Origin: a virus | IMG/VR virus record: IMGVR_UViG_3300037184_000135 | Span: 1 to 27,041 of that record | Length of the DNA stretch: 27,041 bases | Strand: one strand, 5' to 3' | Shown: in pieces, positions 1,348 to 17,980 of the stretch | Layout of the letters: every line of letters starts with the position of its first letter | Numbering within the stretch: position 1 is the stretch's first letter | The notes under the pieces: model-generated | The model's input: the letters and a program-made list of their open reading frames with translations, nothing else | What the model was told of the DNA's origin: nothing | Databases searched by the model: none | Made by a program: the position numbers and the translations under genes

Positions 1348-2040
1348 TCTATAAATATACCCCCAAACAGCATTACCTTCGGGAATGTGTACTCGCCATC
1401 CTTTACAGGATTTGGCCCTACCATGTAGAAGGTCAGACATATGGGATACCCCAATTCCATGAGTTTTACAAAAATCAGTAAGAATATTGATGGATACTAT
1501 TTCTCCGAGTGGGGATACCATGTTTGGAAATCCTCCCGGTGGCTTTCGGGAGTTGGCTATACTTATGCGTTTAGATTCCGTACATGGATTAGATTTACCA
1601 CGACAACTATCTCCAATCTTTTTTCTTGCTGCCGCACTAACAGGATGCCCCATCAGTGTATTACTGATTTTCCGTTTAGTTTCTTCTGGTAATATTCGAC
1701 CTCTCATTTGGAATGAACGAAGACGGTACAGTTCTTCTGGAGTTGGTGGAGAAATAAACACATTGCATAGATTATGTATTCCTATCTCCTTTATTCTTTC
1801 GGTCTCCCTTCGATATGCCTCCATATCGTCATCTGTAAAAAAAGTTTGTTTATATTGTATTACCCCTCCGTTTCTCCAAATAGAGAGGATTTTATTACGA
1901 AGATGCCGATTTTCGTGAGACTCGATATGGTTCCGTTTTGCCCTATGCTCGTGGACAAACATTCGTCTTCCACGCCCCTTACCAACGTAAAAAACCTTCC
2001 CATCCAACGAGTTCATCAATTCATAGACATAATATTTCAT
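1336..2040 (-). CDS. GIY-YIG homing endonuclease with NUMOD motifs
   Basis: A likely free-standing homing endonuclease of 234 residues that nicks or cuts DNA to spread its own gene. The N-terminus has the GIY-YIG core: YYVYELMNS, then FYVGKGRGRRM with the catalytic Arg region, and a helix with ETERIKEIG that would hold the metal-binding Glu. The middle has NUMOD3-type DNA-binding repeats (PEETKRKISNTLMGHP, then ARKKIGDSCRGK). The C-terminus has a NUMOD1/helix-turn-helix-like segment (SPLGEIVSINILTDFCKTHG to CKGWRVH). I chose ATG 2040 because the GIY motif follows at once; an in-frame TTG at 2055 would translate the promoter-like box. The gene sits between terminase and portal with a TATTTATAGA copy at each end, consistent with insertion. 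I cannot rule out that it is the remnant of a once intron-borne gene. Confidence 0.88.
   Translation of the reverse strand: MKYYVYELMNSLDGKVFYVGKGRGRRMFVHEHRAKRNHIESHENRHLRNKILSIWRNGGVIQYKQTFFTDDDMEAYRRETERIKEIGIHNLCNVFISPPTPEELYRLRSFQMRGRILPEETKRKISNTLMGHPVSAAARKKIGDSCRGKSNPCTESKRISIANSRKPPGGFPNMVSPLGEIVSINILTDFCKTHGIGVSHMSDLLHGRAKSCKGWRVHIPEGNAVWGYIYRKGQ
1348..1357 (-). repeat. Direct repeat TATTTATAGA, downstream copy flanking the endonuclease gene
   Basis: This 10-base sequence is repeated exactly at 2042-2051, in the same orientation. The two copies bracket almost the whole endonuclease gene. Deletion between them would leave a single promoter-like box between the terminase stop and the portal gene. 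Confidence 0.5.
1349..1357 (-). promoter_or_regulatory. TATTTATAG box, putative late promoter of the portal gene
   Basis: The sense strand reads TATTTATAG. It lies within a 17-base string (1343-1359) that is identical to the one before the 98-residue structural gene at 12925-12941. It is 54 bases upstream of the portal ATG and no -35 hexamer is visible. The string doubles as the last codons of the endonuclease gene. Promoter function is inferred from recurrence, orientation and position. Confidence 0.5.
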
Positions 2041-2041
2041 G

Positions 2042-2051
2042 TCTATAAATA
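2042..2051 (-). repeat. Direct repeat TATTTATAGA, upstream copy flanking the endonuclease gene
   Basis: Exact copy of the sequence at 1348-1357. It fills most of the short gap between the terminase stop (2057-2059) and the endonuclease ATG (2040). It also contains the TATTTATAG box and could act as that gene's promoter, although only one base separates the repeat from the ATG. Confidence 0.5.
2043..2051 (-). promoter_or_regulatory. TATTTATAG box directly before the endonuclease start
   Basis: The sense strand reads TATTTATAG, then AC, then ATG. If it is a late promoter with a start site 5-7 bases downstream, the transcript would begin at or inside the start codon and be leaderless. No Shine-Dalgarno is present. 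Confidence 0.4.
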
Positions 2052-2056
2052 GCAAG

Positions 2057-3712
2057 CTACGAAATCAACCATCTCAAATCTTCCTGATTTTGTTTACCAA
2101 ACCCTTGGCGGCCCGTATTCATTTTCCATGCATTATGCCCCATTTGGGCTTGTTTCACTTTATAGAATGGGGTTTGGTCCATTTTATCCTTAGTCATTGC
2201 TCCGACGGCAATCTTAGTCAGTTCGACGCCTTCTTGACGCAATCGGAGGGCAGTATCACGGACCCACAACCCAATGCAGAGAGCCATAACCAAGTCGTCA
2301 TTGTAGCCATCCATTGCGATAGGTTTTCCGTTTTTCCAAATGAAAGTTTCCAATTCTGAAAGTGTACGTTTAGAACGAATTTCAATAGCCATCTGACGCA
2401 TATAGTGTTCCATATTATCAATGATCATCGGGCGAGTCTTAATATTCGTACCGAATCCCGGAATCATTTTTTTATCTTCCGACGCCCAACTGTTATGCAT
2501 TTGACGCTGTACATCCACATACAAGGCACACTTCAATTCAGAATTGCTATAAAAAGTATTAGGATAACCTCTGTCGAGAACTTCCTGGATAGTTCCCCAT
2601 CCGACATTTTCACGCTCAATGACAAGCAAACAACTATTGTACTCGGTTGCCAAGGCTACGAGAAAGTCACCGAAGTCCTTGGTACTGATTTTTCCTTTGT
2701 ACTCAGCAACTTGGACCGGCTTCTCTCGACTTATATCCAGAACGTGACATGCCGAATAATCTTCGCCATCTCCACGGGCTACGTCAGCCGCTATCACATA
2801 GACGTGAGTTCTGTCGGGATATTCCCAAATCCATAGATTCTTGTCCATGCCACGAGTTTCAGCAGGATCACAGGATTTGTTCTTCTTATAGAATTCAATG
2901 ATGTTAAGGTCAACAACGTTATCACCCGATGCGAGGAAGTTGCAATCAAACTCTTGAGACGCTTTCTTGGGGTTTCCTTGTTTCTCGCCAGCAATTCTAC
3001 GCCACTCATCATCCCGCTCGGGGTGAAGCTGCCACGGGAGAGTAATAGGATGAAATCCATTTTTTCCAACCGTACCATCTTTGTTATCGTCAGATGCTCC
3101 TTGCCACATTTTGTGGAACCAGTTACCAACGCCACGGGGAGTTGAAAGAACAATGGCATTACCACCCGTTGACAGCGTTGGTTGTGCTGAAGTCCAAAGG
3201 TCTTCGGCATCGTCAATGAGTGCTGCTTCGTCAACAATTAGGAGGGAAAGAGCCTGACCTACACCCGACTTCTTCGTAGTTGAGGCAGCTTTTATATTCG
3301 AACCGTTCACAAATCGCATGGAAAGGCGATTATCCTCAACACATCGAACCTTGAGCCAGTTTGGAAGTTCGGCATGAGCATCACGAACCTTCGTCACAAC
3401 GTCCTTAGCATCATCTTGTTTCAGTGAAATCAAAAGGACATTCTTATCTTTGTGAAAAATCATCAACCATAGGGAATAAGCAGCAACGAGAGTTGAAATA
3501 CCCATTTGTCGGGACTTCAGAATAATGTTGTTATTGTAGTCGTGAAATGCCTTGAGTGTTTCCTCTTGAAAGTGGAACAGGTCGAAGAGAATAGTGCCCC
3601 GCATTGGGTGCTTAATCTTGACGTAGTGCTTCATGAAGTACGTAGGGGACTCCAAGCACTTTTTGTATTCGTCTCGAATTAGGTCTTGATAAGAGATTTT
3701 TCCGTCTGACAT
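2057..3712 (-). CDS. Terminase large subunit, T4 gp17-like (551 aa)
   Basis: The ATP-driven DNA packaging motor and headful nuclease; it docks on the portal and pumps DNA into the prohead. The ATPase domain shows a terminase-type Walker A, SRQMGIST at residues 67-74, with Ile where T4 has Lys. Walker B is LSLLIVDEA with D161/E162, and the coupling motif is STP at 190-192. The RNase-H-like nuclease domain shows the expected acidic residues in order: IAADVARGDGEDYS near residue 310, then VIERENVGWG, and DGYNDDLVMA near the C-terminus. The length is slightly below T4 gp17 (610). ATG 3712 overlaps the end of the upstream gene by 34 bases, suggesting translational coupling. The C-terminal tail after the nuclease domain is rich in Gln and Lys. 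Confidence 0.96.
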   Translation of the reverse strand: MSDGKISYQDLIRDEYKKCLESPTYFMKHYVKIKHPMRGTILFDLFHFQEETLKAFHDYNNNIILKSRQMGISTLVAAYSLWLMIFHKDKNVLLISLKQDDAKDVVTKVRDAHAELPNWLKVRCVEDNRLSMRFVNGSNIKAASTTKKSGVGQALSLLIVDEAALIDDAEDLWTSAQPTLSTGGNAIVLSTPRGVGNWFHKMWQGASDDNKDGTVGKNGFHPITLPWQLHPERDDEWRRIAGEKQGNPKKASQEFDCNFLASGDNVVDLNIIEFYKKNKSCDPAETRGMDKNLWIWEYPDRTHVYVIAADVARGDGEDYSACHVLDISREKPVQVAEYKGKISTKDFGDFLVALATEYNSCLLVIERENVGWGTIQEVLDRGYPNTFYSNSELKCALYVDVQRQMHNSWASEDKKMIPGFGTNIKTRPMIIDNMEHYMRQMAIEIRSKRTLSELETFIWKNGKPIAMDGYNDDLVMALCIGLWVRDTALRLRQEGVELTKIAVGAMTKDKMDQTPFYKVKQAQMGHNAWKMNTGRQGFGKQNQEDLRWLIS

Positions 3713-4341
3713 AGAGTTTCAAGATTGTATTTCTTACAGGCTTCAACGTATTTTTCTTTCTGCTCGTCACGGATTCTTGTCAACGCAGCAATACGGAGTC
3801 GAGCCTCTTTCAAATCTTTCTTGGCATTCGTGAGGATTTCATCGGCATTAGTCGTCTTCCATCTTTCTGTAAACCCTTCAGAATTACAAAGCATACTAAC
3901 ATCGGTGTCATCTGATTCAAAATACTTAATCGTCTCCCAAATCTTTCCCTCGATGTCCTTGGTATCTCCAAGCTCATTGGAAGCCAGTTTGTACTTTTCA
4001 TAATCGTCGTAGATACCCAAAATACGCAATTTGGTCTCGTAGTCAATAAGACACGTCTCACATAGTCCAGTCTTTCTATAAAAAAGGCGATCTGCTCGAC
4101 TGCCCCACTTCACTTCCATTCCGCATCGACATTTTTGGACACCAATCGCCTCACGGACGATATTTGCCACTCTATTGACCTTCCGAGGTCCACTGGCCAT
4201 TTGAACCCACTCTTGACCCGATTTGTCGGTCCAAGTATCCCCTACGGCACGCTTGACGTATTCTTGACCCGTATAACCAAACACACTAACGGGACGTGTC
4301 CCATTCAAATAATCACGTATAATAGAGAGATTGCTTTTCAT
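3679..4341 (-). CDS. Zinc-ribbon/coiled-coil protein in the small-terminase position
   Basis: A 220-residue protein not recognised with certainty. The middle has a CxC plus CxxC arrangement (KCRCGMEV, then GLCETC about 25 residues on) that could bind zinc. The last 60 residues are a highly charged helix (from about TNAKKDLKEARLRIAALTR to KYVEACKKYN) likely to form a coiled coil. The gene lies immediately upstream of, and overlaps, the large terminase, where T4 has gene 16, so a DNA-recognising small terminase is the best guess. T4 gp16 is shorter (164 residues) and I know of no zinc ribbon in it. Start ATG 4341 has TAAGGAAAGG at 4353-4362 upstream and a TATTTATA box about 60 bases before it. 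Other options are a packaging accessory or a transcription factor. Confidence 0.75.
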   Translation of the reverse strand: MKSNLSIIRDYLNGTRPVSVFGYTGQEYVKRAVGDTWTDKSGQEWVQMASGPRKVNRVANIVREAIGVQKCRCGMEVKWGSRADRLFYRKTGLCETCLIDYETKLRILGIYDDYEKYKLASNELGDTKDIEGKIWETIKYFESDDTDVSMLCNSEGFTERWKTTNADEILTNAKKDLKEARLRIAALTRIRDEQKEKYVEACKKYNLETLCQTEKSLIKT

Positions 4342-4402
4342 ATAACTGTATGCCTTTCCTTATGTACATAGGTAAATACTGGTGTAAAACCTCCTCCGAA
4401 CC

Positions 4403-7021
4403 TTATAAATAGGTAGTTTTGTTACCCAAAGGGTCAACATAAACTCTTCTGCCATATACATTTGGAGAGGTTCCGCTGTATCGTATAGCAAGAGAACGCC
4501 CCGTTCCCGAGGTAGTTGAGAGACTAAGATAGTCAAGAGATGGACTTGTTGGGGTAGATGCTATCAACTCCAAGTCAGTAATACCGGTATAACAAAGAGA
4601 ACCTTCGCCTGACAATGGTGGATAATGAGTTGGTATATTGTATCCAAGCAACCGTTTTCCCGAAGGGCACGAACCAATGCCGGGCAAGTATAACTCGCTT
4701 TGAACAGTTAGGGTATTAACAATAGATGGGATGCCTGTCGAAGTCCCAGACGACCCAATAATAGTAGTTCCAAACAAACTTGCACCTGCGGGATCGAATG
4801 CCCGTATTACAATTGGAATAGTATAAACAAGGCTTGCATTACTATCGAACAGTTCCGCTTTAAGCGTATATGATTCGTTGGCGACATTAATTGGAAACGG
4901 TAACTGAACTTCGATAGCTCCTGGAGAAAATCCATAATCACCGTAATTCTGCATAGATATGTTTGTCATCGTGACATTGCATCTGTAAGGGACAATGACT
5001 AACGTTCCGTAATAATCATGGAGAGGAGTGAAGAACATTTTCTGAACATCGGGAAACCTTCGTCGTTTCACTTTATCTGGAACCGTAATCGTTCCGAGTT
5101 TCCACCCATATACCGGAGAGTAATCTCGTTCTCCCGATATAGTAGGGAATGAACTCGTGAAATAGAATTCAATTTTAGCTGTAGTCAGGGGGTCTTTATC
5201 CACAACCATGTTAGCTGATAAAACGTGAAGAACCCCCTGGGGCAGAAAAATGAAATTGGAAGCATATCCCGCCCCATTGAATTGAGCAAAAGCCGCCGCA
5301 TCAAACGGATAGTAGTTAGAATCATTTACCAAATCAATGGCAGAATTTTTGGCGATGACATAACTGTTTCCGTCCGCCCCCGAGTAATCGCTGGTATTGG
5401 CAATGATGGACATTCCCGCCGAAAGCGGATCATCAGCCTGAACCAATTCCAAGGATGCAGAAGAAGCAAGCCAGTACTGGTCCACTTTGTTCTGATTTTC
5501 CATCACACCTATCCTAGCATAAGCTTTATTTACGGTTATTGGATCGGTCAATAACTCAGTTGGACCAACCACCGAATCCTGAATTAAATTGAAGTCGCCG
5601 GGGTAAATATTGCTTTTAGCATACAGTTTGTGACGGGCAATGAACCCCGAGAAAGTATCCGTGTTCCTATATAGAATATCCACGTAGGATTTTTGCATAA
5701 GAGACGACGACCCCGCCGTAGTAGAATAGTACTGATAGGGACTTGACGCCGTAAGAATCGCAATACTTCCCGACATGTTAGTCGCTATCGCATCGTAATT
5801 TGTATCGAATAGTTTGTAATGAATAGAACCAATGTTGGCGGTTCTCGGATCAATTACACTTACAATAGGATATATTCCCGAAAGAACTGGATTTGGATTT
5901 GGAGGGGTTCTAATAGCGGTATTAACGGCTCCAATTCCTTGCACACCATAGAAATACAGAGTTCCGTAAGTTACCCGAATGTTTTGACCCACCATTAACC
6001 CTGAGAAGACATCGGTATTGGTGTGCAATTGCATATACCCCGGATTCACTTGGTCAGCAAATGTAGGAATATTGGCGATTTGCGGAATGTAAGACACATT
6101 CACATAGCTTGAAGTAAATGACGCAGGAAACTCCATGCTTCCAAGTCCAAGACTAATAGGCGAGATTTCAACTTCGGATGTGGATTTAACATTCAGTATC
6201 ATCGGAGATGCCGTGGCATGTTTATAGATTCGTGCGTTTTTTCCGTCATAGATAACAACGAATTCGGGAAACGTGTACAATCTTGGTAGAGTCGGGTCAC
6301 TTGCCGAGGCGATGAAAAACAAAGTATAATAATCCAGGTTCAGGATTGCCCCCGCCATCTGCGAATTGAACGATGGAACTGGAGAGTTAGGATTAGTCCC
6401 ATTTATGGAACGAAGTATATACTGATTTTGTGAAATGCCTACGGTCGGAAAGGCATCGACATAAAAAGACCCGGTGATAAGTTGAACGTTGGATAGATAT
6501 GACCCCGTGATAGATTCTACAACGGGGTATAGAAGCGGGGTGACTTCCATCGTCGGGGCATGGTAAAATCGAACACGGGATGCATTCGGATAAGTAGTAT
6601 TTATAGTTATATTTCCAACCCACCGTACAATTTCACCTTTCGGAGTAGTTCCTACGAGAATTACTTTCCCTGCCCCACTAATAGTTTCCTGATATACATG
6701 GATAGCAACTGTGAAATTGGCAATGTCAACAAATCCGGAGCTTTCTGGCGGGGAAGCTAAATAAAGAGAATTACCGTCGGAGTCAAGAACTTCGACTTTG
6801 ATTTCAGAACCATCCGCAAGAAGGTCTGAACCGTTAAAGGAAATAGAATTTTTTCCCGCAGTAAATACGGGTTCAAACTCAACAACGTGAAAATAAGTAG
6901 AAAGGTGGGCAGTATCTACAATATCCGCCTGAATGTCGGCAAGACCTTGGGCTACGCCGCTGATGGTGTAACTTGTGTCGCCCTTCTTTCCGAAGTTTGA
7001 TAGTAATTGATTTGATGCCAT
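4403..7021 (-). CDS. Large virion structural protein (872 aa)
   Basis: Not assignable to a T4 protein. It is beta-rich with abundant Gly, Ser and Thr, few Cys, and a composition like the other structural proteins in the window. The N-terminal region reads as an extended start (MASNQLLSNFGKKGDTSYTI) followed by Ig-like sheets (FEPVFTAGKNSISFNGSDLL, then EIKVEVLDSDGN). An internal repeat is visible: NTDVFSGLMVGQNIRV and later NTDTFSGFIARHKLYA, each after a strand of similar pattern, suggesting duplicated domains. I chose ATG 7021; an in-frame ATG at 7057 adds 12 residues (MYWVGYHSPPVR) that would run through a hairpin. It lies between the recombination nuclease and the packaging genes. A baseplate or fibre/decoration component is inference from style and context. 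Confidence 0.75.
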   Translation of the reverse strand: MASNQLLSNFGKKGDTSYTISGVAQGLADIQADIVDTAHLSTYFHVVEFEPVFTAGKNSISFNGSDLLADGSEIKVEVLDSDGNSLYLASPPESSGFVDIANFTVAIHVYQETISGAGKVILVGTTPKGEIVRWVGNITINTTYPNASRVRFYHAPTMEVTPLLYPVVESITGSYLSNVQLITGSFYVDAFPTVGISQNQYILRSINGTNPNSPVPSFNSQMAGAILNLDYYTLFFIASASDPTLPRLYTFPEFVVIYDGKNARIYKHATASPMILNVKSTSEVEISPISLGLGSMEFPASFTSSYVNVSYIPQIANIPTFADQVNPGYMQLHTNTDVFSGLMVGQNIRVTYGTLYFYGVQGIGAVNTAIRTPPNPNPVLSGIYPIVSVIDPRTANIGSIHYKLFDTNYDAIATNMSGSIAILTASSPYQYYSTTAGSSSLMQKSYVDILYRNTDTFSGFIARHKLYAKSNIYPGDFNLIQDSVVGPTELLTDPITVNKAYARIGVMENQNKVDQYWLASSASLELVQADDPLSAGMSIIANTSDYSGADGNSYVIAKNSAIDLVNDSNYYPFDAAAFAQFNGAGYASNFIFLPQGVLHVLSANMVVDKDPLTTAKIEFYFTSSFPTISGERDYSPVYGWKLGTITVPDKVKRRRFPDVQKMFFTPLHDYYGTLVIVPYRCNVTMTNISMQNYGDYGFSPGAIEVQLPFPINVANESYTLKAELFDSNASLVYTIPIVIRAFDPAGASLFGTTIIGSSGTSTGIPSIVNTLTVQSELYLPGIGSCPSGKRLLGYNIPTHYPPLSGEGSLCYTGITDLELIASTPTSPSLDYLSLSTTSGTGRSLAIRYSGTSPNVYGRRVYVDPLGNKTTYL
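4404..4411 (-). promoter_or_regulatory. TATTTATA box before the packaging genes
   Basis: The sense strand reads CTATTTATAAGG, matching the other boxes in eight core positions with A instead of G at the ninth. It overlaps the last codons and stop of the upstream structural gene and lies about 62 bases before ATG 4341, close to the 54-base spacing seen at the portal gene. No -35 element is visible. Confidence 0.4.
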
Positions 7022-7063: not shown

Positions 7064-10000
7064 CTATTCGTAGTTTACGAACGAGAAGTTACCGTCTCTC
7101 CTCACTTCAATCTGCTTGTCCACAGCATCCTTGAGAACGTCGAGATGCGAGATAACAAGCACAAAATCGTAATAGTTCTTCAACAGAGAAAATAACGTCG
7201 GCATTGACGCAAGATTATCAGGGTCCAGAGTTCCAAAGCCTTCGTCAACGCATAGCATATTGCAACGAGGTAGATTGGATATTTCTGTTAGAGCAACACG
7301 AATTGCCACACTGGCCACGAACCGTTCGTATCCAGAAGTTAATTCTATAGGCCATCGTCCATACTCATAGACCACGTATGGAACAATATTTTTACCATCC
7401 GTCTCGAACTGAATAGTGTAGTCCACCACTTGGCTGAGGATGGAGTTAACTTCCTTTTCTATTTCGGGGACCGTATTGCAAATTACCTGATAAGGAATCC
7501 CATCTCTTCCGACTGCTTGTAAATAATTCTGATAGAGATTAAGTTCCTCTTCCATTGCTGTGACTTCGGCAAGAGTTTTCTTAACCGCTTTTATAGTTGA
7601 CCCAAACAACTCCCGTTTGCCGGAAATATCCATGAGGGATTGATACTGCTTTTGAGAAGCGGCATCAAGTTTCGAGAGAGTCGCTCGGAACGCATTTATT
7701 TTCGATTGCACCTTGGCATTGTTTTCCACGGATACTTCATTGCGGTGGTAGATTTCGATTTGCTGAGTGATTGTATTAGTAGCAGTATCCAGATGCTCAA
7801 GTTCGTTAATTGCAATAATGATGTTCTTACTTGCCGTAGCACACTTGTCCTTAATTATTCCACGCTCCGTTAAAAATTTGGTATAAGTTTCATAGGTATT
7901 CTCAACCCACTTATAAACATCAATATCGTCTCTTAAACTCATGAGATCGGTCATCATTTTGTCTGTCTCTTTTTTGTCTTCGACGAGTTCCGTCTTAGCT
8001 TTGGTAGCATCTTTGACGAAATCATTATCCACACAGAACTTGCAGTTGGGGTCGTACTTGTGATGCTTAAGACGTTCTACCTTTTCAAGCTTACCTTTGA
8101 CTTCCACCTTTTTGAGGTCAATCTTCTGTTTGAGAGCGGTCAGTCTATTGGACATTTCCTTGTAAGTTTTGTGAGCCTCCACGAAGTTGGACTTCTCTAT
8201 CTTATCAACCTCCACATTGATTTCCACGAGTTTCTTCTCTTGTTCAACGAGGGTCTCTCGGAAATCCGAAATCTGCTTCCTTTTGGCAGTAAGTATTGAT
8301 TCGGAAGTTTGTTTTCGAGATTCCAACAACGAGAGGTCTGTAGGAATGCTCGTGTCCAACTTAATCATATTGGCAGTCTCGGAGACAATTTTCTCATTCA
8401 CTTCGGAGATTTGTTTATTCAGGCTTTCTGCTTGCTCATTAGACACAGCAAACAATGTCTCTGCGTGGGACAGTGCTGCCTCGTTCTGCTGAATATCGAG
8501 TTGATAGTTCTTGTCTCTGTGAGTTTTGAGAACCGCCACGAGTTCTTTGTTTCTCTCACCGGCAGACTCATGAAGACGGTCAAACACATTAAGTCCAATG
8601 AACTGCACTAAAAGGTCCTTACGTTCACTATTTCCCATATCAATGAATGACGTAAGATTCTTGGCATTCTGGAATGATGCGGCAGTGATGACGAAATCCT
8701 CATAAGTCCCAATGTAATCACGAATAATGTCATTGGTATCACGCCTTTCCGTACCATGAAGTTCCTCATCAATTCCGTTTTTGGTGCGCCAGAACTTTAC
8801 TTCCACCTTGACGTTTCCCAAGCGAGTAGTGTTTCCTTTACGTTCAATGAAATAACGAACACCCGAAATCTCGAATTCTAATTTGCATCGGAAAGATGAC
8901 TTCTGAACATTAAGAACGTGAAGTCCTTTATATCCTCTGTCAAACTTATCAAAGAGGCAAAATATGATAGAAGATAAAATACTTGACTTTCCTGACTTAT
9001 TAGGTCCGAATATGCCATAGACACCCGCCATATTCGTAAAATCAATGACATTCCCCTCGCCATATGTAAACATATTGTCCCACTCAAAACGTATGGGTTT
9101 CCATTTAAGATTGCGTGAAAAGTCATCCCGCTTAATGAGCAGATTTGTTTTCTTATTGATTTTCAGAATCTTGTCAATTGTCGTGAGGTCCACAATCTCA
9201 AGTTTCTTCGTCAGGAATTCGGTCAGGAGTTTGTCTTGATACTCCACGATGGTCAAATCCGCAAGGACAATATCCTTACACAGTGGAATGATGTCTTTTT
9301 TATCTCGCTCTTGGTCCATGCGAACATAGGTAGTCTCCATCACTTGCACCTTCATCTTAATGTCAGCGAGGACTTTCTTAACTTCTGACGCCACACTTTC
9401 GTAGCACTTCATACGGAGGCGTACCTTCTTGGGAAGATGCGTCAAATCCGTGGTCAGTTGACCCTTCTGAATGTCAACGGTAAAATATCCATACTCATTC
9501 TTCAATTCGTGAAACCCATATCTTCGGGTTTTCAAATCCCACAGCGAATACCCATGTCCATGAAGTTCTTCCCCGTGGTTCTGCTGAATCATACTTCCAA
9601 CATAATGAATACATGGCTTGAAATTGTCCGGATCATAATCTTGCATGTCTTGGCGCTTATGAATATCACCTAACAAAGCAATGTCATTGTGATCAAACAA
9701 TGGCGGCATAATGGTTGGATTACTAATAGAATACCCCGTATCCAACGCCGCTCTATCCACCGCTCCGTGGAATAATGCAATAATATGTTCATACTGATTG
9801 CGATAGACAGGGGGAATATCTTGTCCACGAATATACCGCTCAGGAGAATCGAACACGCACATGTTGTTGAACAAGATGTTTCCCATGCTGTACAGACCCG
9901 TAGTTTTGAGATAATACACCTTGGGGTTATTCAAGGCATCAACCAGCGGTGTAATGCTGTCCAGTCGGCTCTTATTAGAAAGAGTGGCATCGTGGTTTCC

Positions 10001-10270
10001 AGCTACAATGACAAATGGTCGGAGGTTAGCAAGATTGGTAATAAAATCGGAAGCAACTTGAATACACTCAGGCGACAAATCTGATTTGGAGTGGAATAGA
10101 TCGCCCAAGAAAGCAACAACCGTTTCGGAAGGAGTTTTCTTTACTTCCTCATATAGCACTTTGAATACCTCTTTGTACTCATCGTGTCTCTTATTAAGCC
10201 GGATATGCAAATCGGCTATATGAAGGATGTGCGTAAACTTTAGTATATCGGTTTTCAGTATGGTAATCAT
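7064..10270 (-). CDS. Fused Mre11-Rad50 (SbcD-SbcC; T4 gp47-gp46) recombination nuclease, 1068 aa
   Basis: A single chain carrying both halves of the DNA end-processing complex that T4 encodes as gp47 (339 aa) and gp46 (560 aa). The N-terminal third is a calcineurin-like phosphoesterase: D20-x-H22 in HIADLHIR, GD57 in FLGDLFHS, GNHD at 91-94, then FHG and a GDIH motif. The remainder is an SMC-like ATPase: P-loop FGPNKSGKSS from about residue 421, long heptad-rich arms, a zinc hook C743-x-x-C746 between them, a signature motif ELTSGYERF near 970, Walker B LCVDEGFGTLD near 1008, and a conserved ISHLD histidine loop. ATG 10270 overlaps the upstream stop (ATGA). In-frame codons further upstream lie inside the transporter gene and lack family similarity. 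Expected role: 5'-end resection in recombination-dependent replication. Confidence 0.93.
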   Translation of the reverse strand: MITILKTDILKFTHILHIADLHIRLNKRHDEYKEVFKVLYEEVKKTPSETVVAFLGDLFHSKSDLSPECIQVASDFITNLANLRPFVIVAGNHDATLSNKSRLDSITPLVDALNNPKVYYLKTTGLYSMGNILFNNMCVFDSPERYIRGQDIPPVYRNQYEHIIALFHGAVDRAALDTGYSISNPTIMPPLFDHNDIALLGDIHKRQDMQDYDPDNFKPCIHYVGSMIQQNHGEELHGHGYSLWDLKTRRYGFHELKNEYGYFTVDIQKGQLTTDLTHLPKKVRLRMKCYESVASEVKKVLADIKMKVQVMETTYVRMDQERDKKDIIPLCKDIVLADLTIVEYQDKLLTEFLTKKLEIVDLTTIDKILKINKKTNLLIKRDDFSRNLKWKPIRFEWDNMFTYGEGNVIDFTNMAGVYGIFGPNKSGKSSILSSIIFCLFDKFDRGYKGLHVLNVQKSSFRCKLEFEISGVRYFIERKGNTTRLGNVKVEVKFWRTKNGIDEELHGTERRDTNDIIRDYIGTYEDFVITAASFQNAKNLTSFIDMGNSERKDLLVQFIGLNVFDRLHESAGERNKELVAVLKTHRDKNYQLDIQQNEAALSHAETLFAVSNEQAESLNKQISEVNEKIVSETANMIKLDTSIPTDLSLLESRKQTSESILTAKRKQISDFRETLVEQEKKLVEINVEVDKIEKSNFVEAHKTYKEMSNRLTALKQKIDLKKVEVKGKLEKVERLKHHKYDPNCKFCVDNDFVKDATKAKTELVEDKKETDKMMTDLMSLRDDIDVYKWVENTYETYTKFLTERGIIKDKCATASKNIIIAINELEHLDTATNTITQQIEIYHRNEVSVENNAKVQSKINAFRATLSKLDAASQKQYQSLMDISGKRELFGSTIKAVKKTLAEVTAMEEELNLYQNYLQAVGRDGIPYQVICNTVPEIEKEVNSILSQVVDYTIQFETDGKNIVPYVVYEYGRWPIELTSGYERFVASVAIRVALTEISNLPRCNMLCVDEGFGTLDPDNLASMPTLFSLLKNYYDFVLVISHLDVLKDAVDKQIEVRRDGNFSFVNYE

Positions 10271-10581
10271 ATGGTAAGTAAAACTATCGCAATGACTCCG
10301 AGGACAAGACCTATTGCCTGCGTCGTAGTTACTGGCTCTCTGAAAATAATAAGTCCGACGGAAAGTGTAATCAACACATAAAGAATGTTCCACATGGTTC
10401 CGAGAATAGATAAAGAGTTATATCGAGTGATGGATGGCAAAAAACAAAACGAACTGATGATCCATCCAAACCACGCAAAAATTCCGAATGATTTCAGGGA
10501 TGTATCAGCATATTTCTTGGAAAAGTACTCTCCAACCCCAAAACTTATCATTCCGAATGCTATCCAAAGTATAAGTGTCAT
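10267..10581 (-). CDS. Small four-helix membrane protein, SMR/EamA-type transporter (104 aa)
   Basis: The chain has four hydrophobic segments (about residues 3-20, 33-50, 58-80 and 87-104) and very short loops, the size and layout of small multidrug resistance proteins such as EmrE (110 aa). Two EmrE landmarks align: a membrane glutamate in helix 1 (E18, in VGEYFSKKYAD) and a tryptophan in helix 3 (W64). The last segment, REPVTTTQAIGLVLGVIAIV, is typical of SMR/EamA proteins. The gene is coupled by ATGA overlaps to the primase upstream (ATG 10581) and to the recombination nuclease downstream (TGA 10267-10269). Location would be the host inner membrane. Substrate unknown; a drug or cation exporter, or a membrane anchor of the replication operon, are all inference. 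Confidence 0.8.
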   Translation of the reverse strand: MTLILWIAFGMISFGVGEYFSKKYADTSLKSFGIFAWFGWIISSFCFLPSITRYNSLSILGTMWNILYVLITLSVGLIIFREPVTTTQAIGLVLGVIAIVLLTI

Positions 10582-11534
10582 ATTCCAAGTTCGTATTTCA
10601 AAAGGTCACTCCAATCAAATGGGGGAGAGTTCCGAATGAGTTCATGAATCTTCTCAAAGCCAAGTACAGATGGGTCTTTTCCATTTAATTTGACGATAGA
10701 AATCTCTTCGAGCGTAGCCACTTGTTTTTTGAGATTTATGTATGCCTTTATAGAATCTTTCTCAGCATCTAAATCCAGAATCACGTTTACATGTTTAACG
10801 TGATTCTCGTTCATTCTCATTTTTAACGCTTGTGACGGATACTTTCCGAATAAAGGTATGGCATTATTGCGAATAGCCACTGCATCAAACACTCCTTCGC
10901 ATAAATTGAGCGGCTCATTGTAATTTACGAAACTCTCAAACCCCACAAGATTCATGGGTACATCCGGTTTCTTGTGCGGTACTCCGGGGTCATCGTTGTA
11001 GTATCTACGCCCCATGAAAAAGTTGAGTACACCTTTGGCATCGTATGACGGAACAATGATATGATACTCATATTCTCCGCCGCCTTCACAATAACCAATG
11101 TTATACCTCAAAATATCTTCCTTTATTATTCCTCTCCGTTTAAGATATGCCATAGCATTTTTATACTCGGGAGTATTTTTTGGTTTGGACATGGGATGAA
11201 ACTCGTGCGGAAGACTGACGAAAGTGAGGTCAGATTTAGCATAACGAGCCATCCGTATGTCTCCAGTAAGCTTGAAAATGGCATCCCGATAGCTTTGAGG
11301 AGCTTGAAGTTTGTAAAGCAAACTCCCAAACGTACCTCCTTTAACATCACATCTCCAACAGTGATATAATCCAATGCTAGGTCCACTAACCCCGATTTCG
11401 AGTTTTTGGGTAACACGGTTTTTGTCAACGCAAAACGGACAGTGATACGTTGCTCTCGTTCCAGATTTTCGGAGCCGTGCTCTCTGTCCAAGCAATTCAT
11501 CGAAGATTGCTACGAGTTCATATTGTACCATCAT
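10578..11534 (-). CDS. DnaG-type DNA primase, T4 gp61-like (318 aa)
   Basis: Makes RNA primers for lagging-strand synthesis. An N-terminal zinc ribbon is formed by C32-P-F-C35 and C59-W-R-C62. The central part has the primase core pattern (HIIVPSYDAKGVLNFFMGRR), and the TOPRIM domain shows its glutamate in NLCEGVFDAVAIRN (near residue 210) and the acidic motif VILDLDAEKD (near 250). The length fits T4 gp61 (342). Start candidates are TTG 11537, ATG 11534 and ATG 11531; GAGGT at 11546-11550 is 11 bases before 11534 and 8 before 11537, so I give 11534 but 11537 is possible. The stop overlaps the start of the membrane-protein gene. The partner helicase (gp41-like) is not in the window. Confidence 0.9.
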   Translation of the reverse strand: MMVQYELVAIFDELLGQRARLRKSGTRATYHCPFCVDKNRVTQKLEIGVSGPSIGLYHCWRCDVKGGTFGSLLYKLQAPQSYRDAIFKLTGDIRMARYAKSDLTFVSLPHEFHPMSKPKNTPEYKNAMAYLKRRGIIKEDILRYNIGYCEGGGEYEYHIIVPSYDAKGVLNFFMGRRYYNDDPGVPHKKPDVPMNLVGFESFVNYNEPLNLCEGVFDAVAIRNNAIPLFGKYPSQALKMRMNENHVKHVNVILDLDAEKDSIKAYINLKKQVATLEEISIVKLNGKDPSVLGFEKIHELIRNSPPFDWSDLLKYELGI

Positions 11535-11575
11535 CAACCAAGATTACCTCAATTTAAGAGCAAACTCAACTTTTT

Positions 11576-11902
11576 TTAATTTTCTGAGTAATGCCACGTT
11601 GACCCCGAGTGAGATGCAGTATAATCCTCAAGTTGTTCGTCCAATCGACTTTTTGCGACGCTCAAATCAACCTTGTACCATTCGTTTTTGATTTCCACAG
11701 CGAAGTGCTTCATGACTTCTTTGATACGCTTCTCAGCTTCTTGGTATTCGGGGTGGCGAAGGGAATAAACTAAACGATAGCGGCGAAAGGGGTCACAGGT
11801 CTGATAAACATGAAGACGCTGTGCCAAATTCAAAGTCGTCCCGACTTTAACCCATTCGGGAAACGCTTCATTCGTAACTATGTAGAGGTATCCTGGCTTC
11901 AC
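11576..11902 (-). CDS. T5orf172-domain protein, GIY-YIG superfamily (108 aa)
   Basis: A single-domain protein of the T5orf172/MUG113 branch of GIY-YIG-like nucleases. Recognisable pieces are GYLYIVTNEAFPEWVKVGTT (the GIY and YIG-equivalent strands), NLAQRLHVYQT with the conserved Arg, YRLVYSLRHP, and a following helix EAEKRIKEVM. It ends with a short polar tail. The start is GTG 11902, whose last two bases are the start of the TGA stop of the preceding gene (GTGA), so translation is probably coupled. Family members are presumed DNA-binding or nicking proteins; the true role is unknown. It precedes the primase by about 40 bases, in which I see no strong promoter. Confidence 0.83.
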   Translation of the reverse strand: MKPGYLYIVTNEAFPEWVKVGTTLNLAQRLHVYQTCDPFRRYRLVYSLRHPEYQEAEKRIKEVMKHFAVEIKNEWYKVDLSVAKSRLDEQLEDYTASHSGSTWHYSEN

Positions 11903-12108
11903 TCTTGGTATAACTTCTTGTATTGCGGGTCCGAATGCATACAGTCATCACAAACGTACTCTTCATCATCTCGTTGATATTCTTGCCAGTTTCCCTCGGC
12001 AACAAGATAATAACCACCCGTAAGTGTAACTCCAGTCGTCGGGCAAATATCAATGGTTCCTTCTACCTTTTTGCCACATCGGTCACATGTTATCTGAATG
12101 GATTTCAT
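11899..12108 (-). CDS. Zinc-ribbon mini-protein (69 aa)
   Basis: A small soluble protein with two CxxC knuckles, CDRC at residues 8-11 and CDDC near residue 53, separated by a beta-rich segment (GVTLTGGYYLVAEGNWQEY). This suggests one structural zinc site. It is not a family I can name. ATG 12108 is preceded by ATTTATAGGCAT with no Shine-Dalgarno and lies 4 bases after a TATTTATAG box, so its message could be leaderless. It overlaps the T5orf172 gene by 4 bases and is likely expressed with it. Possible roles include a host-takeover regulator or a partner of the downstream nuclease, both inference. Confidence 0.72.
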   Translation of the reverse strand: MKSIQITCDRCGKKVEGTIDICPTTGVTLTGGYYLVAEGNWQEYQRDDEEYVCDDCMHSDPQYKKLYQE

Positions 12109-12112
12109 ATGC

Positions 12113-12121
12113 CTATAAATA
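12113..12121 (-). promoter_or_regulatory. TATTTATAG box before the zinc-ribbon gene
   Basis: The sense strand reads GATATTTATAGGCATATG, with the box ending 4 bases before the start codon. It shares the core nonamer with the boxes at 1349, 2043 and 12931. As at 2043, a promoter here would give a nearly leaderless mRNA. Confidence 0.45.
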
Positions 12122-12142
12122 TCATGTGTTTGGATATATGAA

Positions 12143-12589: not shown

Positions 12590-12616
12590 CTTTCTTTTTT
12601 ATAACCTGAGTTTCTC

Positions 12617-12913
12617 TTACGGATGGTATCTGGTTGTGTCAAGTCCATAGACGTAAGTGGACAATCCTTGAGTATCTCCGCTCTGAACTGCTTTGAGTTG
12701 GGATACCTGTTGCAGCACTCTTACTTGGAAACCATTCGGGGCTTGGAAAGTCGCACCAAGCTGGCTGGCAGCATCAATTACCTCTCCCGTTAATGGTTCT
12801 GTTCCTGGTTGACCGAGCACGTTTTTGACTTCAAACGCTCCGCCTGAATGTTGCTTAGCGTAGCGTACGTCGAGGGTTGTTGTTAATGAGGGTCTTTGCG
12901 TAGGTGTAGGCAT
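12617..12913 (-). CDS. Small putative structural protein (98 aa), single-gene transcription unit
   Basis: Not recognised. The sequence starts MPTPTQRPSLTTTLDVRYAK and is Gly/Gln/Thr rich with no Cys, no membrane segment and no signal peptide. It is moderately hydrophilic, like a small virion or head-decoration protein. Expression signals are unusually clear: a TATTTATAG box at 12931-12939, AAAAGGAAA at 12922-12930 before ATG 12913, and the strong terminator at 12573-12589. It is the only gene here with both promoter-like and terminator elements to itself, which suggests high or separately timed expression. It follows the 807-residue propeller protein. Confidence 0.75.
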   Translation of the reverse strand: MPTPTQRPSLTTTLDVRYAKQHSGGAFEVKNVLGQPGTEPLTGEVIDAASQLGATFQAPNGFQVRVLQQVSQLKAVQSGDTQGLSTYVYGLDTTRYHP

Positions 12914-12921
12914 ATTTTATG

Positions 12922-12930: not shown

Positions 12931-12939
12931 CTATAAATA
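12931..12939 (-). promoter_or_regulatory. TATTTATAG box, putative late promoter of the 98-residue gene
   Basis: The sense strand TATATTTATAGAAAAGG (12925-12941) matches 1343-1359 base for base over 17 positions. It lies 17 bases upstream of ATG 12913, with no recognisable -35. This is the clearest example of the box in a true intergenic gap. Confidence 0.55.
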
Positions 12940-12966
12940 TAATACCCCTCCCTAATTCAGCCAAAA

Positions 12967-12982
12967 AACTTGAAAACGAGTT
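12967..12982 (-). terminator. Weak terminator after the propeller-protein gene
   Basis: On the minus strand AACTCG and CAAGTT form an imperfect 6-bp stem (one mismatch) around TTTT, followed by TTTT and GG. It lies 17 bases after the stop at 12999. The stem is short and A/T-rich, so it may be only a pausing signal. Confidence 0.3.
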
Positions 12983-12998
12983 GATTTCTTAGGCATAC

Positions 12999-15422
12999 TT
13001 AGAAGTCCATTTTAACTACAAAGTTAATTGGCAATTCTGGGGTTATTTTAATCGGCGTGCCGAGTTTGGCAAGTGCAACTAACTCCAAGTTGTTATTATA
13101 CATTCCAATAGTTGTTGCCATTGGAGCCAAGAACGAACCGGTCTTGTCGAATACGGTCAAACGCTCATAGTCCAAAAATCCGCTCTTAATCGTGGGCAGC
13201 GAGAATTTCTGACTCAACCCATTGAGGTAGTCCATAATGTCACTAAATAAACGACGCTTGCACGCTGGCGTAATGTAAGTGGCATAATTCTCTTGGGTCA
13301 ATCGGTGAGAGAAATACTTCCACATAATATTCATGTCCCGAAAATCAATGCGATTGTCTTGGTTCAAGTCCAATATGGTTTGCATTTCCGTATCTGTAGT
13401 TTCCCATCGAAGAAGACTTTCACTCAACAACTGCGGAGTGGTACGACTATTCGTGTTGACTTGATAATAATTAAGAAAACTTATTTCGTCATCCGTCGTC
13501 ACAATGGAAGAACTCCAATCCGTCGAAATGGGAACATCAAGAACAGATGTGTTCTTGTACTGCATATAACTCAAAATCACATCAGCGTCTTGAAAGTCAA
13601 ATACTCCATTTTGATTGATGTCCAGAACTGATGGGATTTGAACTATTGCCGTTGGGTTGGTACTAACGTTAAACTCACCCGGGTCAACGGTGCAAATGAT
13701 TTGTTTCTCGAAAATAGTATGCTGACTCTTGAACTCCAAATCATACTCGTAGGTATAGACATTTGCAGGAGCGTAGAATAATCCATCAAATACAGACCCA
13801 GAAGTCATGATAATAACTTTTCCGTTGCGATAAAATACGTTTCCAATGTGGAAATGGTCACGGAGATTATGCAAGTTATAAATGTACGCCTTCCCCATGA
13901 GGTCATCCATATTAATGTTGTCACTCTGAGTAGTTTGAATGTTAATTTGGCGATTGGAGTCAGATATATACATCGGAGCGCCAACGACCATTGACTGATC
14001 AGCAATGGCTACATCAAATCCATAATCACGGTACGGACTCAGATACTTCTTCTTTTTTTGATAGACATTGGTAATTCCCCATACTCCAGAGCCAGTATCT
14101 TTCTGCAAAAATATAGATTGACCATCTAATAAGGTCTGTAAATCGGCATTGCAATAATGCAACTGGTTCAAAGTTCCTCCGATATAGCAGGAAGTCATTC
14201 CCATCACATCTATTTTAGGAACCCCAGCAACAGCACTTCCACTGAACATGTCAACAGACCATCCCGCCACGTTGTTGTATAGCGTATTTTCATTCCCGTA
14301 AGTTTTGAGAACTTGCATCCATCCCATTGCATTGGAACAACGCTCAAATATGTACACCGACCCCTGTTGATAAAGAGTTGATCCGCTGTACTCATAAAAC
14401 ATGCGGTCATATGGCTCTCCAACAACAACCGCATCCCCATATATTCCTACTGAATGTCCAAACCCATTGTAGGTATTCATAGTGAGGTAATCGAATTGGG
14501 GAATATACTTGGAGTTGAATGTCATTGGCTGAACATTGAAGTCGGGGCAAAAAACATACGACTGGGTCCATACATTGTTTATATACTCAAAATAGTATGC
14601 TGCTGCATTCGCCGGATTTCCACAGCCGACCACTAAACTATAGCTGTGAGGACCATCATATTTGTTCAGTTTCAGACTAAATCCGAACTGTGCCTCGGGA
14701 ACTGCATTGGTCGGAGATATTTTCTGACACAGAGACCACGAATAGTTATTCCCTACGGTCTGATTACGATAGAGATATACAAGTCCACTCGACCCACTAA
14801 AGTTAGGAGCACCTATAGCAATCCAATCTTTATTTATAGAGACTGCCTTTCCGAACGAACCAGCAACTCCATAGTGTTCAAAAACATCGGGGTCATCAAT
14901 GGTAAAAGCGGCAACACTCGAACTATTTGCTGTCCATTCAAGTTGGGCCAAATCATAAACTTGGGCACTTGCCCATGAACTCGTAAGAAAACTACCCGAA
15001 GTCTGGGTCACTTCTGTAAGATAAGGGGACCCGACGACTAAATATTTCTCGTACATATCAAGAGATACTCCAAATCCATTTTCGAGAGAGGACGTATAAA
15101 GGTCTTTATCTATGCAAATGTCGTACCCGGAATAAGAGACGAGCGACGAATTCTCCGCAGATATTGGGGTTGACGAGGAAGGGAAGTTATTGAACTCCGT
15201 TGTAAGTTTAACATCCATTTCTCTCCAAGGTTGATAAAGAGTTCTAACATAGTCGTGGGTATCCTGAGACCTATTGTATCGAAATACATCTATCGAACCT
15301 GTGTGTATTACGCTGGCAGTGAGTTGGTTCCATCGAAAGAAATCGGGATTAGAAACTACAACATAATCGCCATAGGTCGTCACGGCATAACCATAGTTTT
15401 CATTTTTAACATTTACAAACAT
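12999..15422 (-). CDS. Virion protein with FG-GAP-type propeller and dockerin-like motifs (807 aa)
   Basis: The first 530 residues contain repeats of the FG-GAP/integrin-alpha propeller type: GYAVTTYGDYVVVSNPDFF, GFGVSLDMYEKYLVVGSPY, FGKAVSINKDWIAIGAPNFS, FGFSLKLNKYDGP, GFGHSVGIYGDAVVVGEPYD, GWSVDMFSGSAVAGVPK and YGFDVAIADQSMVVGAPM, about seven blades. Residues near 600-625 and 680-703 hold two dockerin-like calcium loops, DINQNGVFDFQDADVILSY and DLNQDNRIDFRDMNIMWKYF, each followed by a helix. The last 51 residues match the C-terminal module of the gene at 16113. No signal peptide, consistent with a virion part. Likely a tail adhesin or baseplate accessory; the calcium sites suggest Ca-dependent folding or binding. 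Start ATG 15422 is 12 bases after the upstream stop. Confidence 0.82.
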   Translation of the reverse strand: MFVNVKNENYGYAVTTYGDYVVVSNPDFFRWNQLTASVIHTGSIDVFRYNRSQDTHDYVRTLYQPWREMDVKLTTEFNNFPSSSTPISAENSSLVSYSGYDICIDKDLYTSSLENGFGVSLDMYEKYLVVGSPYLTEVTQTSGSFLTSSWASAQVYDLAQLEWTANSSSVAAFTIDDPDVFEHYGVAGSFGKAVSINKDWIAIGAPNFSGSSGLVYLYRNQTVGNNYSWSLCQKISPTNAVPEAQFGFSLKLNKYDGPHSYSLVVGCGNPANAAAYYFEYINNVWTQSYVFCPDFNVQPMTFNSKYIPQFDYLTMNTYNGFGHSVGIYGDAVVVGEPYDRMFYEYSGSTLYQQGSVYIFERCSNAMGWMQVLKTYGNENTLYNNVAGWSVDMFSGSAVAGVPKIDVMGMTSCYIGGTLNQLHYCNADLQTLLDGQSIFLQKDTGSGVWGITNVYQKKKKYLSPYRDYGFDVAIADQSMVVGAPMYISDSNRQINIQTTQSDNINMDDLMGKAYIYNLHNLRDHFHIGNVFYRNGKVIIMTSGSVFDGLFYAPANVYTYEYDLEFKSQHTIFEKQIICTVDPGEFNVSTNPTAIVQIPSVLDINQNGVFDFQDADVILSYMQYKNTSVLDVPISTDWSSSIVTTDDEISFLNYYQVNTNSRTTPQLLSESLLRWETTDTEMQTILDLNQDNRIDFRDMNIMWKYFSHRLTQENYATYITPACKRRLFSDIMDYLNGLSQKFSLPTIKSGFLDYERLTVFDKTGSFLAPMATTIGMYNNNLELVALAKLGTPIKITPELPINFVVKMDF

Positions 15423-15434
15423 ATTGGCGTTCGT

Positions 15435-16094
15435 CTAATCGGGTGGACTTTCGTAAATGGGACAAGTATAAGACGCTGACCCCGTTAACACTGAGTTTCC
15501 AATGGAACGTACTTCTTGAACCTTTGAGAAAAGATTGGTCCCCGCATTGAGATTGCCATTAGAATCATCTCGAACGTCCACGTTGTCATCAAATGATGTA
15601 TCCTCGAATTGAACACTTCCGGGGGAAATTTTATCACCCATGGCGAATCTCGGGATGGTAAACATTCTAAACTTGTCAGCCAAGTACAAGTTTGTCTTAT
15701 CCCTTGGGAAGTCAACATTTTCCATTCCGAAGATTTTGGTCGGATTGCGATAGTTGTTATAGAAAGCCCGATACGTCTGGTTGTAAAGAAGAGTCTTATA
15801 CGTACCGGTATTCAGGTTTTTTTCTGATGTATTAGGGTCAAATCGGGAATTGCTTCCACTCAGACCCTCTTCGTAAACCGCCATATCTTCCGTCTGTTGT
15901 TCCAAGGCTATGTTGCAATCACGATTTAGTAGGGGAGTGCCTGTGATGTAGTCAATATAATCAAGAGCAATAGATGTTTCGGAATCTTGTTCCAATACTA
16001 TTTGATCTGGGTTCTGTACGTTAAACAATTCCCACGCCTTTGTGGCACGAAAAGGCGATGTCGTTACATCGGTCTTTTTAATTTGCTTAAGCAT
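15435..16094 (-). CDS. Putative virion structural protein (219 aa)
   Basis: Not recognised. It begins MLKQIKKTDVTTSPFRATKA, a positively charged N-terminus, then is acidic and rich in Asn, Asp and Thr (SNSRFDPNTSEKNLNTGTY, FEDTSFDDNVDVRDDSNGN). It has no membrane segment and no clear catalytic motif. The C-terminus ends in TGSASYTCPIYESPPD, with the T-G-S tripeptide that recurs throughout the neighbouring structural proteins. The gene lies 18 bases downstream of the 385-residue structural gene and 12 bases upstream of the propeller-protein gene, so it is probably co-transcribed with them. A tail connector or adaptor role is inference from context. Confidence 0.72.
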   Translation of the reverse strand: MLKQIKKTDVTTSPFRATKAWELFNVQNPDQIVLEQDSETSIALDYIDYITGTPLLNRDCNIALEQQTEDMAVYEEGLSGSNSRFDPNTSEKNLNTGTYKTLLYNQTYRAFYNNYRNPTKIFGMENVDFPRDKTNLYLADKFRMFTIPRFAMGDKISPGSVQFEDTSFDDNVDVRDDSNGNLNAGTNLFSKVQEVRSIGNSVLTGSASYTCPIYESPPD

Positions 16095-16112
16095 ACTGTC
16101 ATGACATCTCTA

Positions 16113-17270: not shown

Positions 17271-17293
17271 ATTCTTACAATGTTATTGGTGAT

Positions 17294-17947
17294 TTAGGTT
17301 TGAGAAGATGTCGAAGAAGGAACCGTGACTGTAACTTCAATTGAAGTGCTACCACCGGATTCATTTCCTATGATGGTTAAATTGGTTGTAGTTGTCATAG
17401 TCAGCCCGCTATTTGGAATAAACCGAAACGAACTTCCGACAACGACTTGGGCGCTTGCGATGTTGATGTCACCAGCAAAGGTTGGTACTGTGTTGGAAAC
17501 AGAGTTGACAGCATTAGTCTGCTGCACAATAAGAATACCAACGTTCTTATTGCCGAGGATTGCCGTATATCCCGATTGCAAATTGTAAGCAGGGTTGGTG
17601 GAGGGGCTGATAATAATGTCGCCCGTGTAATCCTTTGTTATAAGAATCTTGTCTTGGGCAATAGTAATCACCGGAATGGATGTAACTCCCTGATTCAGGG
17701 TTACCAGTTTGTACTTCATTACTTGAGTCTCATCCGTCAATGGCTCGAAAACGGGGGTGTTACGCAAAGCAATATCGTAAAAGGCACTCCCTTGCGGGTG
17801 ATTTGGCTGATACAGCGTGTAATCAATTTCATCATCTGCCAGAGCAAAACTGGTTATGTTTAGGTTGCCGTTCTGAGCCAAAAGCTGACGACCTTTTTGG
17901 GTTAGAATTGCATCGACGGTTATAGTTTGTGAATCAATATATGCCAT
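17294..17947 (-). CDS. Putative virion structural protein (217 aa)
   Basis: The N-terminal 60 residues (AYIDSQTITVDAILTQKGRQ, then LLAQNGNLNITSFALADDEI) form a pattern I have seen in structural proteins of large myophages but to which no firm function can be given. The rest alternates beta-strands, with IVQQTN and VVVGSSFRFIP segments, and ends in a Ser/Thr-rich tail (VTVTVPSSTSSQT). No Cys and no membrane helix. Upstream of ATG 17947 are a CTTATAG variant of the late box at 17972-17980 and only a weak A-rich ribosome site (AAAAGAAT). A tail or baseplate role is inferred from neighbours. Confidence 0.75.
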   Translation of the reverse strand: MAYIDSQTITVDAILTQKGRQLLAQNGNLNITSFALADDEIDYTLYQPNHPQGSAFYDIALRNTPVFEPLTDETQVMKYKLVTLNQGVTSIPVITIAQDKILITKDYTGDIIISPSTNPAYNLQSGYTAILGNKNVGILIVQQTNAVNSVSNTVPTFAGDINIASAQVVVGSSFRFIPNSGLTMTTTTNLTIIGNESGGSTSIEVTVTVPSSTSSQT

Positions 17948-17971
17948 ATTCTTTTATAAAGTGTTACTCAT

Positions 17972-17980
17972 CTATAAGTA
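17972..17980 (-). promoter_or_regulatory. TACTTATAG, variant of the late box
   Basis: The sense strand reads TACTTATAGA, one change from TATTTATAGA. It lies in the 51-base gap between the stop at 17999 and ATG 17947, 24 bases before the start, which is comparable with the other boxes. It may drive the 217-residue gene and those downstream. Confidence 0.35.

Follow-up and report, generated by a model that had tools for sequence, protein, structure and literature searches.

Recurrent boxes in the leaders of a far-T4-type virus fragment

The DNA analysed here (the window) is a 27,041-base fragment, IMG/VR virus record IMGVR_UViG_3300037184_000135, in which nearly all genes lie on the minus strand. 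It is a fragment of a far-T4-type myovirus, a group defined by the isolate RM378 (PMC7198788). By terminase and portal identity, its closest cultured relatives are Flavobacterium phage immuto (47/52%) and Microcystis phage Mel-JY01 (47/53%), and the window portal matches Rhodothermus phage RM378 at 33%. A first-pass annotation had noticed that a nonamer, TATTTATAG, recurs in gene leaders and had proposed it as a late-promoter box. We find that the conserved unit is MTATTTATA (M = A/C), i.e. (A/C)TATTTATA, and that it is probably the -10-type late-promoter element of this far-T4 branch, read by a phage sigma factor divergent from T4 gp55.

Exact copies of TATTTATAG lie on the minus (gene-sense) strand at 1349-1357, 2043-2051, 12113-12121 and 12931-12939, and near-copies at 4403-4411 (TATTTATAA) and 17972-17980 (TACTTATAG). 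All six had been listed by the first-pass annotation, and the first variant is now seen to span 4403-4411. The 17 bases said to be common to two copies are likewise present, as TATATTTATAGAAAAGG at 1349 and 12931. The boxes, extended to the conserved unit, and the genes nearest the first two are as follows (distances in nucleotides, nt; ORF, open reading frame; aa, amino acids).

3..1295, minus strand: T4-type portal (gp20) gene (Pfam Portal_T4, 5e-64), the putative target of the 1349 box
1336..2040, minus strand: GIY-YIG/NUMOD3 homing endonuclease gene, inserted between the terminase gene terL and the portal gene, with a box at each end
1349..1358, minus strand: portal (gp20) box ATATTTATA(G), 54 nt before the ATG and within the last codons of the GIY-YIG ORF 1336-2040
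2043..2052, minus strand: endonuclease box CTATTTATA(G), 3 nt before the GIY-YIG ATG
2057..3712, minus strand: terminase large subunit (gp17) gene, terL, without its own box and overlapping the 3679-4341 gene
4403..4412, minus strand: box CTATTTATA in front of gene 3679-4341, at 62 nt, overlapping the stop codon of an 884-aa gene
12113..12122, minus strand: box ATATTTATA(G) in front of ORF 11899-12108 (69 aa), 5 nt from its ATG
12931..12940, minus strand: box ATATTTATA(G) in front of gene 12617-12913 (98 aa), 18 nt from its ATG
17972..17981, minus strand: variant box ATACTTATA(G) in front of gene 17294-17947 (217 aa), at 25 nt
6598..6606, plus strand: antisense intragenic TATTTATAG, preceded by G
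14831..14839, plus strand: antisense intragenic TATTTATAG, preceded by T

The nonamer is expected 0.23 times by chance on both strands, in line with the earlier estimate of less than one per window. Six copies were observed, a number reached in 0 of 100 shuffles. On the sense strand alone there are four copies against 0.135 expected, with a maximum of two among 400 order-2 Markov sequences. Counting the nonamer with one mismatch gave no excess in the window (14 vs 9.4 expected), and for that reason the analysis below was confined to exact cores and conserved positions. Loose variants are untrustworthy on count alone, and the variant at 17972 is supported by its conservation. The earlier statement that every copy lies in a gene-sense leader holds for the copies then listed; it had overlooked the two antisense intragenic copies, and the copy at 1349, although in the portal leader, also falls inside the end of the endonuclease frame.

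The motif is enriched in leaders of related phages

Relatives were fetched by terminase similarity, genes were called mechanically, and leader k-mers were counted without a presupposed motif. In these relatives ATATTTATA topped the leader k-mers, and TATTTATA was found in 65 of 274 leaders, against 5.05 expected and 8 antisense copies in the same leaders. When A/T-only 8-mers were compared in the close relatives, TATTTATA had 65 sense and 11 antisense copies with 2.7 expected. Among the 256 such 8-mers it ranked first in the window, close, mid (terL 46-51%) and immuto sets and third in Mel-JY01 leaders, and it is the top or near-top leader 8-mer in the longer relatives and immuto. As a control of the method, the same ranking places the T4 late consensus, TATAAATA, first in T4 leaders. 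Thus, the leader enrichment that the first-pass annotation had proposed to look for is present in many relatives. The reversed pattern ATATTTAT was tried as a control for genome searches and proved useless, as it overlaps the real motif.

The base before the 8-mer is part of the conserved unit. An A or C precedes 129 of 133 leader copies (97%), compared with 44-46% of coding copies (Fisher p = 5e-20), and the choice depends on clade, being mostly C in the immuto-type group and mostly A elsewhere. The last G of the nonamer is variable, so that the unit first described was displaced by one base: its final G lies outside the conserved core, whereas the preceding base belongs to it. Within the window, this A/C rule holds for each of the five sense copies with an exact core. 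The plus-strand copies at 6598 and 14831 break it, and we judge them chance copies rather than promoters.

Conservation of the boxes and their place before virion genes

In immuto, 8 of the 21 genes with a structural annotation have the box before them, compared with 0 of 51 other named genes; the boxed genes include terL (site at 118973) and those for portal (120577), sheath (146982), tail completion (149157), hub (149754) and tape measure (150757). The first-pass annotation had held that its proposal would fall if no enrichment were seen before other structural genes, and the immuto counts show that enrichment. Together with the portal leaders (17/21), they place the box in sense before virion genes, as is typical of T4-type late promoters.

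Conservation was also assessed for individual boxes. The portal box is present in 17 of 21 distinct orthologous leaders and is retained where the flanks have fully diverged. Boxes were found in 8 of 21 orthologous leaders for the 3679-4341 gene (box at 4403), in 4 of 5 for the 12617-12913 gene (12931), and in 3 of 5 for the 17294-17947 gene (17972), in the last case 24-45 nt before the start. For terL (2057-3712), none of 23 orthologous leaders has a box, and this gene is probably co-transcribed with the overlapping 3679-4341 gene. Window genes without a box have orthologues that are almost never boxed.

The terL-portal gap also bears on whether the box acts in DNA or in RNA. Across relatives, the box in this gap is kept while its spacing falls from 54-62 nt in one clade to ~10-16 nt in another. 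The box could instead be an RNA-level leader signal, serving as a ribosome-binding substitute, a processing site or a stability element, since many copies lie 3-25 nt from start codons and most leaders lack Shine-Dalgarno matches. We regard this as very unlikely: spacing ranges broadly over 3-62 nt, with no fixed optimum above the lower limit, rather than sitting at a fixed short distance; the portal box keeps its identity at both spacings; and the strict A/C position and a downstream purine block (see below) fit DNA recognition and initiation.

Promoter anatomy and direction of reading

Across 129 sites, no conserved upstream information was detected beyond the A/C position, and hence there is no -35 element, as the first-pass annotation had noted for the window copies. 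The paired -35/-10 hexamers of a host sigma-70-type promoter are not seen. What is seen is a single TATA-type box of nine conserved positions without a -35, the T4-type arrangement, in which the box stands about one helical turn before the start; here the start position is one that we infer from the downstream bases. At the 99 sites with a start codon at least 9 nt from the box, purines occupy positions 4, 5 and 6 after the box in 92, 79 and 77% of cases.

Start codons show a lower limit. They occur 3-5 nt after the box at 20 sites and 0-2 nt after it at one, while all other A/T 8-mers pooled give 306 start codons at 0-2 nt and 362 at 3-5 nt. The lone site at 0-2 nt (immuto 1336) is a probable miscall, as the annotated start lies 10 nt after the box. 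None of the 20 sites at 3-5 nt has a Shine-Dalgarno-like match. A start-codon peak at this distance without Shine-Dalgarno sequences suggests that these genes have leaderless mRNAs. The T4 late box, TATAAATA, occupies -13 to -6 and is used with gp55, gp33 and the gp45 clamp (PMC2988020, PMC1524935); the same register would put the start 6 nt after the box here, in many cases on the ATG itself.

The box follows the strand of its gene: in four contigs, a gene opposite to terL has an own-strand box 5-7 nt before its ATG. This matters since TATTTATA, read on the opposite strand, is exactly TATAAATA, and the boxes might be T4-type late promoters on the other strand that drive antisense transcription. 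We give this idea almost no weight. Sense TATAAATA is far less enriched than TATTTATA in leaders. The A/C rule, the purine block and the start-codon limit are each placed as they would be if transcription ran into the gene, the box changes strand when its gene does, and the other strand of the window shows nothing gene-like to transcribe. Because the A/C is 5', the purine block and ATG are 3', and the box flips with the gene, we read it as a same-direction variant of TATAAATA in which AA at positions 4-5 has become TT. The earlier inference of a phage late box thus stands as regards a phage-specific, T4-related element, backed by leader enrichment, the immuto structural bias and a candidate sigma; its description of the box as "reverse-complement-like" was misleading.

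A candidate sigma factor in relatives

A gp55-like sigma gene, which the first-pass annotation had recommended looking for, lies outside the window if present; relatives carry a divergent candidate ~40 kb upstream of terL, as seen in G001 and immuto, a distance that falls past the end of the window. T4 gp55 belongs to phrog_234, and this late-sigma profile gave two weak matches, in immuto and G009, to ORFs with a sigma region-2 look. Homologues of the candidate are found in the close relatives G001 and G002 (terL 84% identical to the window), in immuto, at 78130-78828, and in Mel-JY01, and a profile search found one in RM378 (E 9e-10). With tblastn, six records matched among 50,697 phage genomes, and in these the protein is annotated as hypothetical or is unannotated. 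A second profile, phrog_12791, was rejected as a route to the sigma as it matched T4 only.

Pfam searches with the RM378, Mel-JY01 and immuto homologues taken singly returned no sigma match, and the assignment therefore rests on profiles and folds. Pfam Sigma70_r2 was detected in 5 of 17 members of the candidate family (best 7e-4) and phrog_234 in three. Alignment of the candidate profile with nine gp55 proteins by hhalign gave P = 8e-5, compared with 0.29 for an unrelated neighbour. A search of solved structures with one candidate or its profile gave nothing useful. With Foldseek, the top PDB matches are mostly sigma factors (SigH, SigI, WhiG, SigE), and the top matches among viral models include the late sigmas of CP20, Kuja, Moby and PhiW-14. 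Members of the gp55 family have a sigma region 2, no region 4 and a hydrophobic C-terminal motif that binds the clamp. In the candidate, the part that matches gp55 is region-2-like; there is an extra C-terminal helical region, and no T4-like SLDFLY end was seen by eye in the alignment. Each line is modest, and together these profile and model comparisons make the candidate a likely sigma factor.

As an independent test, loci were fetched by the sigma protein alone. In every clade of these loci, TATTTATA is a leading leader motif (observed/expected 76/7.2, 33/1.3, 38/1.2, 45/0.8 and 50/2.4), and the excess of sense copies survives the removal of redundant leaders.

This co-occurrence also bears on the possibility that the box is a promoter element for a primary or alternative sigma of the host, in which case the phage sigma-like gene would have another role. 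There is a precedent in Ma-LMM01, a distant T4-like Microcystis cyanophage without gp55 that uses host-sigma-like promoters at all stages (PMC5780444), and the box could pass for a degenerate -10. We consider a host sigma improbable nonetheless, given the co-occurring phage gene, the lack of a -35, a strict 9-mer unlike TATAAT, and the presence of the TATTTATA-type box in phages of Flavobacterium and, more weakly, Microcystis, hosts with different promoters. The Bacteroidota promoter element is TAnnTTTG, from which the box differs.

The proposed mechanism and its relation to known systems

In the mechanism that we favor, the host RNA polymerase with a phage sigma, a very divergent gp55 relative, would read MTATTTATA in the direction of the gene without a -35 element. 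Transcription would begin at a purine lying 4-6 nt past the box, and in a subset of genes this start would be the start codon itself, giving leaderless mRNAs. This proposal draws on sequence comparison, which shows a conserved and directional box, its preference for structural genes in immuto, purines downstream of it, its spacing to start codons and a sigma-like gene that occurs with it.

Several observations weigh against it. An exact box is missing from the leader of the immuto major capsid gene, and the box at 12113, the least conserved exact copy, is absent from the four orthologous leaders tested. The hhalign probability for the gp55 link is weak (61%, or 56% with a second alignment), the PDB Foldseek E-values are 0.07 or worse, and AlphaFold 2 models of the candidate reach a predicted template modelling score of 0.40-0.45. 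The huge phage LR756508 has a sigma homologue elsewhere in its genome and no box in the 50 kb read (L294, 125000-174999), in an unannotated and possibly recoded genome whose ORFs were called with table 11. The T4-type clamp domain PF02916 was found in T4 and not in the relatives, where a diverged clamp may escape the search; Mel-JY01 is annotated with clamp-loader genes. Finally, binding of the sigma to the box, late action and exact start sites are deduced from a case that is computational for every member of the group.

The resemblance to T4 late promoters is extensive. Both have an 8-bp TATA-type -10 box without a -35, an AT-rich downstream region, a position before virion genes and a phage-encoded sigma (here predicted), and the two 8-mers, when aligned in one direction, are identical at six of their eight positions. 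The box differs in its central TT where T4 has AA (positions 4-5) and in requiring a preceding A or C. At the level of the system, the candidate sigma is too diverged for BLAST with gp55 and has the added C-terminal helical region, a T4-type clamp domain was not found, and many starts appear leaderless. The leading leader motif is TATTTATA and not the T4 consensus TATAAATA; because the box fails this sequence test, we do not file it as a T4 late promoter proper but as a variant of that kind. A stronger version is that far-T4 phages have a late-transcription system of their own rather than the T4 one with an altered box: a separate two-domain sigma family, with members in RM378, immuto, Mel-JY01 and many uncultured phages, would read MTATTTATA, do without a T4-type clamp and begin many late mRNAs at the start codon, leaderless. 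We hold this tentative idea to be rather unlikely.

Two published cases offer further comparison. The late promoter of Aeh1 (CTAAATA) is likewise a variant of the T4 late box found in silico from leader motifs (PMC1524935), but it carries another substitution (a/gC at -13/-12, PMC2988020) and belongs to a phage of the recognised gp55 group. The late promoters of Ma-LMM01 are similarly those of a distant T4-like phage; unlike the box, they have host-sigma-like -35/-10 elements, and the phage has no gp55. A literature search, which covered few subscription journals and preprints and thus leaves novelty unproven, returned no paper describing TATTTATA as a phage late box.

In RM378 (L111, 20001-70000), the leader motif is TTATTTAA(A), seen 13 times against 0.17 expected; 7 of 15 boxes are followed by an ATG at 5 nt. 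It has the TATTTA core in common with the window box, and RM378 has a homologue of the sigma candidate; it ends in AA instead of TA and is mostly preceded by T instead of A/C. This motif is possibly an unreported promoter class of a cultured phage.

Other leader motifs were noted in passing. Mel-JY01 (L088, L132-L134) has CTTGCATA and AACCTAAC in 11 and 7 leaders, against 0.3 and 0.0 expected, and these may be early or middle promoters. In LR756508 (L294), TATTTTGA recurs in a few leaders.

The endonuclease insertion and the portal leader

Two boxes bound the GIY-YIG gene at 1336-2040, and other endonuclease-like genes lie near boxes, so that the boxes could be footprints of homing endonucleases, either target-site duplications or carried-in sequence. 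The comparison with relatives makes this extremely improbable. Most of them lack the insertion and keep a single box in the terL-portal gap, and most boxes, including those of immuto, precede structural genes without a nearby endonuclease. The endonuclease more likely brings its own copy of the promoter: in L024 and L025, a 63%-identical homologue is preceded by the same box at the same distance of 3 nt from the ATG. Most simply, the GIY-YIG gene would have a late promoter of its own, and its end would overlap the putative portal promoter. Thus, strand asymmetries, variable spacing and boxes without endonucleases led us to reject the reversed-T4-box, ribosome-site and endonuclease-scar readings, respectively.

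A further feature lies directly downstream of the portal box.

1326..1349, minus strand: short hairpin AAAAGGTCAATAATGACCTTT, just past the portal box, where the transcript is predicted to begin

All 15 portal-leader sequences tested fold into a small hairpin, with stem sequences that differ. In the close clade, such leaders are those of the window, L008, L011, L012, L016-L018, L020-L023 and L025. RNAalifold gave a weak consensus and covariation, owing to alignment gaps. The hairpin may protect or regulate the portal mRNA. After it, at window ~1300-1326 (minus strand), a strongly conserved ACACATACACACTAAA is present in close-clade portal leaders, with flanks that vary.

Other genes in the window

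The remaining recognizable genes include the following.

7064-10393, minus strand: fused SbcD/SbcC-like (gp47/gp46) gene
10578-11537: DnaG-like primase gene

In the first of these, the SbcD-like nuclease and SbcC-like ATPase domains lie in one open frame of 1109 aa; they are separate genes in T4. The window also encodes T5orf172 and SegE-like GIY-YIG genes. The long genes of unknown family that reach 27041 are probably tail genes, judged by their size and position.

Significance

For a large group of T4 relatives, most of them uncultured, the box provides a ready rule for locating virion operons and late promoters. A candidate late sigma can now be named for a protein called hypothetical in the records of cultured phages. 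Phages with TATAAATA and gp55 can be compared with relatives that have TATTTATA and the candidate sigma, which makes the co-evolution of a minimal sigma and its box directly testable. Since immuto was isolated on a cultured host, the reading of the box as a late promoter is open to direct test there.

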